Shown piece after piece: positions 62,501-63,877 of a DNA stretch of 64,000 nucleotides. Numbering within the stretch: position 1 is the first letter of the stretch; each line of letters opens with the position of its first letter. The notes beneath the pieces are model-generated. The model was not told the DNA's origin. It did no database searches and saw only the letters and a program-made list of their open reading frames with translations. The stretch is taken from the NCBI RefSeq assembly GCF_018320785.1, contig NC_054866.1, forward strand, positions 33,209,000-33,272,999, written 5' to 3'. Origin of the DNA: Cheilinus undulatus (Eukaryota > Chordata > Actinopteri > Labriformes > Labridae). The translations under genes were made by a program, and so were the position numbers.

Positions 62501-63877
62501 TTCATGCTGGAAACCCCTCCAATATGCTAAATTAAAACAATTCTGCAAAAAGAGTGGGCCAAAATTGCACTACAGTGGTGATAAAGACTCACACCAGCTA
62601 TTGCAAGTGCTTGCTTGCAGTTGTTGCTGCCAAGGGTGGAACAACCAGTTATTATTTTTAGGCAACATTGACTTTTTCCACAGTGTCACATAGCTTTGCT
62701 GGCTATTTTCACCCAAATGAAATTATAATTTAAAACTGCATTCTGTATTCACTCAGGTTATAGTTGTCTAATCTTAGAATAAGTTTGATGTTCTGAAATG
62801 TTTAATTGTGACAAATACGAAAAAAAAAAAAAAAAAAAAAAAAAAATCAGGAACAGGTGAAATAGCATTGGCATTTTATGTAGATACTGTACTTTTTCAG
62901 GAAGTTGCCCCATCTCAAACTAATTGAATAGTCCTGCTCTAGACCATCTGTGACCCAGATTTGCACATTTCTACAAAAAATGTTCGCAGTGTCCCAACTT
63001 TTTTAGAACTGGGGTTCATAGTTTTAAGGTTATTACCTTTGTGAGTTGTGCAGCTTGGACCAGCTGATTCTTGCTTCCTGCGTACATCATCTGCTGCTCT
63101 GGTTTACATCCTGTTAAAATAACATCAACAGGTTTTCAAGAAATTCTTGAGGCATAACACACCAGTTTGAATTAAACTCAAAAGGCCACACTCTTCAAAA
63201 TAATGCATTTTTATGAGACTGATACAAGAAGAGGATGTACTAAATTATTTTAAGGTTATATCTACTTACCCATTGGACTGGAGAAGATGAAACACAAAGG
63301 GTACGACACCCTTCCATCTGAGTGGATATATTTGTAGCTGTAGACAATGAATTTGCTCTACTGTCAAGAAGTTAACTTTTTCTCAAAGTGAAAACTTTTT
63401 CAGGTTTTTACATGGACTTTAAAAAATATAGATCTCTCAAACTTGTGGCCACATTCATAAAACATTCAGTGAGGATATCTTGGTTGTCGCTCTGGAAGTT
63501 CTTCTCTCAACTCATCCATTGAGATGTCCTAAAAGAAGAAAGTTGTGCCAAAGTGACTTATAATGCAGAATGAACCCTTAAAAATAGCAAAATAAACAAC
63601 AGAGCATGCATTGAACTTGCCTCATATTCTTCCTCAAGGACAACAAGCTGTTTCTCCATGTCTATTTTCACTATTTAATACAAAAATCATGGATTTTGAT
63701 TCAGATGTGCATTTTTTAATATTGTTCATGAAGTTGTATATATGTCACCGTTACTTAAATCTTCCACATGCAGTACTTACTCAGTATGGCAGCATTGTTT
63801 GTCTCTTTTCGAAATCTGAACTTCTTCAGTTTCTCCTTCAGACTTTCATCCACCTCACAAACAACCAGAGAGCTTGA
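59595..63877 (-). CDS. gmfg: Glia maturation factor gamma, partial (first exon beyond the window)
   Basis: ADF-homology protein that binds the Arp2/3 complex and removes actin branches in the cytoplasm. Exons in transcript order: 63781-63877, 63621-63670, 63479-63528, 63270-63352, 63037-63110, 59595-59666. They read [17 protein letters not shown], then [100 protein letters not shown] and [18 protein letters not shown] up to LSFFR. Phases agree, and only the initiator end (M or a few residues) is missing; no ATG followed by a donor was seen up to 64000. SLVVCEVD and the LSFFR end fit GMFG better than GMFB, and PAF1 next door fits human 19q13.2. Two introns are non-canonical: GC-AG (63529-63620) and U12-type (63353-63478). 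Confidence 0.93.
59870..60100 (-). repeat. tRNA-derived SINE copy 4, minus orientation
   Basis: Read on the minus strand it begins with a head containing TCTAGCTCAGTGGATAGAGT, a near-perfect A box. It continues with the purine/pyrimidine body (TTCCCCTCCTCTCTCTCCCC) and ends near the A-rich TTTAATAAAGATTTG. It belongs to the same family as the copy at 20431 and lies in the last intron of gmfg. Confidence 0.7.
61655..61822 (-). repeat. tRNA-derived SINE copy 5, minus orientation
   Basis: On the minus strand it has the CTAGCCTATCAGTTAGGTTG head, a body with CTCCCCAGGTCTCTCATCTC and a short tail ending near AAAATCTTTTTTTT. It is diverged, belongs to the same family as the other four and is directly next to the hAT element at 61823. 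Confidence 0.55.
62170..62660 (+). pseudogene. Tc1 transposase C-terminal remnant
   Basis: The frames read [20 protein letters not shown], then [13 protein letters not shown] for the usual QDNDPKHTSKST, then KSDWNAVP-like text for PIEMLWHDLK, and late EWAKIALQW and [14 protein letters not shown] text. It holds the second catalytic Asp region only, has several frameshifts and lacks the N-terminal half. Confidence 0.55.
62820..62846. repeat. Poly-A run
   Basis: An uninterrupted run of about 27 A residues inside the nested hAT element. It could be the tail of a lost retroposed copy or simple slippage. Confidence 0.8.
63353..63478 (-). other. gmfg: U12-type (minor spliceosome) intron in gmfg, AT at the 5' end
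   Basis: Right after CAACCAAG the minus strand reads ATATCCTCAC, a near-perfect match to the U12 donor ATATCCTT. About 20 bases before the acceptor lies GTTAACT, the core of the U12 branch motif. The intron is 126 bases. Joining to give the conserved PERQPRFIVYS text needs the intron to end GAGCAA, that is AT-AA. An AG three bases upstream would give the in-frame PSKFIVYS instead. Confidence 0.7.
63529..63620 (-). other. gmfg: GC-AG intron in gmfg
   Basis: The exon end TATGAG is followed by GCAAGTTC, the strong context usual for GC donors. The acceptor is CTTTTAG before GACATCTCAATG. No GT donor is available that keeps the frame and the EEYEDIS junction. The intron is 92 bases and lies one 50-base exon before the U12-type intron. 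Confidence 0.8.

Follow-up and report, generated by a model that had tools for sequence, protein, structure and literature searches.

The GMF gene and other features of the window

The window, i.e. the whole stretch of 64,000 nucleotides from Cheilinus undulatus that was analyzed, carries at its right end exons 2-7 of a minus-strand gene for a glia maturation factor (GMF). On this strand, exon 2 is found at 63781..63877, exon 3 at 63621..63670, exon 4 at 63479..63528 (16 residues plus AG), exon 5 at 63270..63352 (A followed by FIVYSYKY...SSPMG), exon 6 at 63037..63110, and the coding part of exon 7, up to the stop TAA, at 59595..59666. Exon 1 lies outside the window and ends, as read by eye, in ...AGAATG|gtaggt; an Rfam scan of the locus carrying it (L004) found nothing useful. 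Intron 3, which follows exon 3 (63529-63620, minus strand) and adjoins the region of the AT-AA intron treated below, is of the GC-AG kind (GAG|gcaagt ... tttag). Three kinds of intron ends thus appear within this small gene; intron 3 of its paralogue begins with GT.

When the protein predicted from AT-AA splicing of intron 4 was compared with PDB, the top matches were GMF gamma chains (4jd2_H, E 1.1e-71), followed by the GMF beta chain 1v6f (E 5.3e-69), i.e. with a modest margin of gamma over beta. The Pfam domain identified was Cofilin_ADF (1.7e-33). One neighboring sequence has a weak likeness to the C-terminal part of PAF1 (window positions 58493-58987; PDB E 0.018, low-complexity, no Pfam family), and the product of the other neighbor is Smaug-like (best E 3.6e-32, against Smaug homolog 1); an NCBIfam scan of two neighbor fragments gave nothing useful. 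In human, we take GMFG to lie in the vicinity of PAF1 and SAMD4B (Smaug homolog 2), and GMFB in that of SAMD4A (Smaug homolog 1). Since PAF1 is thereby placed near GMFG, and Smaug homologs near both genes, the PAF1-like neighbor points to gmfg and the Smaug-like one decides nothing. Based on the gamma matches and on this neighbor, weak as its match is, the gene is likely gmfg.

Other parts of the window held unrelated features. A Tc1 or Sleeping Beauty-like transposase occupies two open frames on the plus strand at 13021-13980 (13021-13500 and 13663-13980), the first with the Pfam domains HTH_Tnp_Tc3_2 and HTH_SB. Exons of a protein kinase gene, presumably resembling TAO kinase, were found at 37493-43008 (plus strand), with Pfam Pkinase at 38107-38463 and additional long frames that contain many charged residues. 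Lastly, overlapping open frames at 23908-24700 (minus strand), one of which contains an AARP2CN domain (23911-24459), resemble what we take to be tsr1.

Junction and U12-type signals of gmfg intron 4

The sequence-only reading of this DNA had proposed a U12-type intron at 63353..63478, and the donor, the branch motif and a conserved homologous position all agree with this. Intron 4, read as AT-AA, spans 126 nt on the minus strand and is in phase 2. Exon 4 ends in ...CAACCAAG, directly abutting the U12-type donor ATATCCTCAC (63478-63469, minus strand), with an exon tail that reads GAGCGACAACCAAG; at the other end, the intron runs ...GTTAACTTCTTGACAGTAGAGCAA|ATTCATTGTC, and exon 5 restarts as A|TTCATTGTC at 63352. 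As exon 4 ends in AG and Arg-Phe is needed, exon 5 must provide A or G before TTC. Eight in-frame ends were tested (1, 4, 7, 10, 13, 16, 19 and 22 nt before TTC), of which three were open across the junction, namely those at 1 nt (AA, 63353..63354, intron ending at 63353), 4 nt (AG, 63356..63357, intron ending at 63356) and 7 nt (TA, giving PRSKF), the other five introducing stops. The AG lies three bases upstream of the AA end, is in frame and adds one codon (PSKF), just as had been claimed. An AT-AC end was also considered and rejected, as the single AC among these eight ends, 19 nt upstream of TTC, introduces stops.

In a scan pairing donor positions -30 to +59 relative to the exon end with acceptor positions -60 to +5 relative to TTC, PERQPRFIVYSYK was restored by three placements, i.e. 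AT-AA, TA-AA and AT-AT (shifts of 0, 1 and 2 bases). All three give an identical mRNA, so that cDNA alone cannot separate them and the donor register is needed; ATATCC falls at +1 only with AT-AA, and AT-AA was chosen because it alone has the U12 donor in register. An AA end had earlier been held necessary for RQPRF; in the scan, no placement other than AT-AA combined an intact PERQPRF with a donor in register. RQPRF itself, described earlier as conserved, is present in 5/5 GMF chains aligned from PDB (some perhaps one protein; a further matched chain bearing the GMF label, 5ynr, is not among the alignments), and also in the GMF paralogue of the same genome. The predicted spliced junction is ...CAACCAAG|ATTCATTG for AT-AA and ...CAACCAAG|CAAATTC for AT-AG.

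Measured against the donor consensus in published descriptions, ATATCCTCAC (63469..63478, minus strand) deviates once from the 8-base form ATATCCTT, at +8 (C), and twice from the 9-base form (A/G)UAUCCUUU, at +8 (C) and +9 (A); correspondingly, ATATCCTC follows (A/G)TATCCTT with one deviation in 8, at +8. The C at +8 is presumably unpaired with U11, on the pairing register we assume. The donor word is not rare in the window: on both strands, ATATCCT occurs 9 times against a mean of 7.25 in 20 shuffles and ATATCC 31 times against 23.35, and the degenerate words [AG]TATCCT and [AG]TATCCTT occur 12 times against 12.0 and 3 times against 4.85. The weight of the donor derives instead from its exact position at the exon end and from the presence of a suitably spaced branch motif.

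That motif is probably not the GTTAACT named in the sequence-only reading (63370..63376, minus strand), whose 8-mer AAGTTAAC agrees with the consensus TCCTTRAY at 5/8 positions. Across the whole intron, the top match was TTCTTGAC (63363..63370, minus strand) with 7/8; the runner-up, with 6/8, sits within the donor. When the intron minus its first 8 bases was put through 4000 dinucleotide shuffles, 1.7% of them produced a match of at least 7/8 whose A stood 10-20 nt before the end. With the U12 snRNA of this genome, all 7/7 flanking bases of TTCTTG(A)C can pair, two of them as G-U, compared to 4/7 for AAGTTA(A)C and 7/7, with one G-U, for the human GMFB motif TCTTTA(A)C. In terms of bases following the branch A, the putative branch point at 63364 is 11 nt from the AA end and 8 nt from the AG; from the A of GTTAAC, at 63372, the distances are 19 and 16 nt. 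The optimum distance is given as 11-13 nt (PMC8199999; PMC3584512; PMC6717393) and the permitted range as 10-20 nt (PMC8199999; PMC3584512), by counting rules that may differ from ours, although a one-base shift leaves the ranking of the ends unchanged. From TTCTTGAC, the AA end falls within this range and the AG outside it. The better consensus match, the fuller U12 pairing and the 11 nt spacing to AA together make TTCTTGAC the probable branch site. As read by eye, the branch A is followed by CAGTAGAGCAA, and a polypyrimidine tract is absent upstream of the 3' end.

The first 16 intron bases were also found to recur on C12 and at C18:36038420. This was taken as chance, since none of 4 GMF peptide words was present in six frames of either 3016-base locus.

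Homologous introns of the gmfb-like paralogue and human GMFB

By searching the genome, at least 11 GMF matches were found, all in two loci, i.e. the window gene on C2 (6) and C18:3681450-3686129 (5). Among the 13 candidates scored, at E up to 10, every match lay within one of these intron-bearing loci, and no spliced retrocopy that could serve as a cDNA proxy was seen. GMF relatives were not confirmed in genome_contigs or viral_contigs. The top PDB match of the C18 gene is GMF beta (1v6f, 8.3e-70).

Intron 4 of this gmfb-like paralogue (L017) splits the same codon in phase 2, has a U12-type donor and branch, and is followed by the same first exon base, A. It begins ATATCCTTTT and ends TCCTTAGCACCAGGAAC|A, i.e. 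AT-AC; its cut shares the three-way ambiguity and was settled by the same donor-register argument. It differs from gmfg intron 4 in its AC end, in its length (1238 nt against 126 nt) and in a donor that fits the 9-base consensus. A G stands at the usual branch position in the paralogue, so its role must fall to the A in TTAG, which precedes the end by 11 nt; either A of the branch consensus is reported to act as branch point (PMC3584512). As for the surrounding gene structure, gmfb-like introns 4 and 5 (L017 3347-4584 and 799-3263, minus strand) are far longer than those of gmfg (1238 against 126 nt and about 2465 against 159 nt), and intron 6, at about 202 nt, is shorter than the 3370 nt of its gmfg counterpart. 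By eye, some stretches of these introns look repetitive.

Human GMFB was among the comparisons suggested in the earlier reading. Its intron 4 has been described, and employed, as a minor intron, with donor TCGatatcc, the 3' end ttctttaacttgagaaaaac, printed more fully as ttctttaacttgagaaaaacCTT, and AT-AC termini (PMC7244321). The final CTT of the printed end may derive from GMFB itself or from the recipient minigene; in the first case, CG|C TT would encode Arg-Phe, which fits. As far as the printed letters go, this U12-type intron splits the same Arg codon as gmfg intron 4, and the intron position is thus conserved among both homologues. The human intron differs in its AC terminus, in a spacing of 12 nt between the second A of the branch motif and the 3' end, and in an exon 4 that ends in TCG.

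Competing explanations and relation to known minor introns

Taken together, these observations make it very probable that gmfg intron 4 is a conserved minor-spliceosome intron removed as AT-AA, and we infer that this junction is the one used in the RNA. There are points against it, namely a donor that strays from the consensus at positions +8 and +9, an ambiguous cut, the reliance on a single assembly and the AG 3 nt upstream. Odd termini deduced from a conserved protein are, furthermore, described as a source of annotation error for many U2-type introns (PMC7367187), and for U12DB, errors accounted for 6 of its 19 odd donors (PMC2831892).

In the earlier reading, either of the ends AA and AG was called unusual; the two are not equally likely. 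Branch distance (11 against 8 nt), the AT-AC paralogue in the same genome and the protein all favor AA. That the intron instead ends at 63356 as AT-AG, placing PSKF rather than PRF in the loop, is improbable, even though this AG is in frame, brings no stop into the junction and lies 16 nt from the GTTAAC branch, inside the 10-20 nt range: that branch pairs at just 4/7 positions with U12, the better one, TTCTTGAC, is only 8 nt away, the AT-AG type is described as disfavored and poorly spliced (PMC3584512), and a residue would be added within RQPRF, kept in the paralogue and in 5/5 aligned chains. A mixture, with AA used mainly and AG at a lower level as tandem minor-intron acceptors yielding PRF and PSKF isoforms, is compatible with AT-AA removal. 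We consider it unlikely, as the same arguments from branch distance and conservation apply, set against two ends that are 3 nt apart and in frame and a choice of U12-type 3' splice site reported to be error-prone (PMC3584512). Unlikely as well, if a little less so, is an intron in transition, in which, once AC had become AA, the weakened end would compete with the AG 3 nt upstream, leading to a low-level PSKF isoform and regulated intron retention in gmfg, with the gmfb-like paralogue keeping its strong AT-AC.

Both homologous introns, in the paralogue and in human GMFB, end in AC, and the terminal A of gmfg was read from one assembly; an assembly error or a private variant in a species that otherwise has AT-AC would explain this. 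It is most unlikely, in that no sign of error was seen and the gmfg exons are in frame. A U2-type intron with GT-AG or GC-AG sites elsewhere has next to no probability. A GT-AG junction elsewhere in the exon had been named as one outcome that would overturn the AT-AA reading, and no GT-AG pair restoring the conserved text was found in the scanned junction range. None of the six GT or GC words located from -50 to +59 relative to the exon end is donor-like, the homologous introns in the paralogue and human GMFB are U12-type, and the donor has C at +5 in place of the G of U2-type AT-AC introns (PMC2831892).

Under AT-AA removal, U11 would pair with the donor ATATCCTC, and U12 with TTCTTG(A)C, leaving the A at 63364 bulged. 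Genes for both snRNAs are present in this genome, with one scored match each (127.7 bits for U12 and 116.6 bits for U11). In the second step, exon 4 would be joined to the base after the A-ending terminus 11 nt past the branch, so that AG|A TTC reads Arg-Phe and RQPRF is kept. Most simply, the intron would be a minor intron of the AT-AC kind in which the final base changed to A, a reading that draws on AT-AC at the same codon and phase in the paralogue and on AT-AC in human GMFB intron 4. The ancestral 3' end would then most likely have been AC, and the change to A in gmfg, if this was its direction, may have been tolerated as part of the A-type (AT-AN) class. The predicted outcome is normal minor splicing with slightly weak sites, i.e. 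the C at +8, two branch wobbles and the terminal A, and some retention of gmfg intron 4 would not surprise us. Splicing efficiency is often reduced with non-canonical termini (PMC3584512).

Gene finders limited to GT-AG, GC-AG and AT-AC probably misannotate this exon, giving PSKF or a broken model. The AT-AC paralogous intron at the identical codon makes a natural pair in which the effect of the last base on splicing and on CENATAC dependence can be tested; if the intron is indeed in transition, the two GMF genes would form a natural matched pair in which to measure what the terminal base costs.

Among the literature matches listed for GMFG (8 of 121), none contained GMFG, and a gmfg AT-AA intron may nonetheless be in print. 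The termini themselves were earlier called very rare. They are uncommon, but documented, AT-AA being the commonest non-canonical minor terminus in animals and plants (PMC10639083). About 3.8% of animal orthologous minor introns have non-canonical ends, and the share of AT-AA is less than half of almost 75% of these (PMC10639083), which implies at most about 1.4% of that animal set. Zebrafish U12-type introns fall outside GT-AG, GC-AG and AT-AC in 2.7% of cases (PMC7367187). With animal and plant AT-AA minor introns (PMC10639083), gmfg intron 4 has both termini in common; with the A-type AT-AN introns, a class in which AT-AA is named and which responds to loss of CENATAC, on which it depends (PMC8280824), it shares the AT start and the variable last base. 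It is thus a new example of an already described rare variation rather than a new phenomenon.
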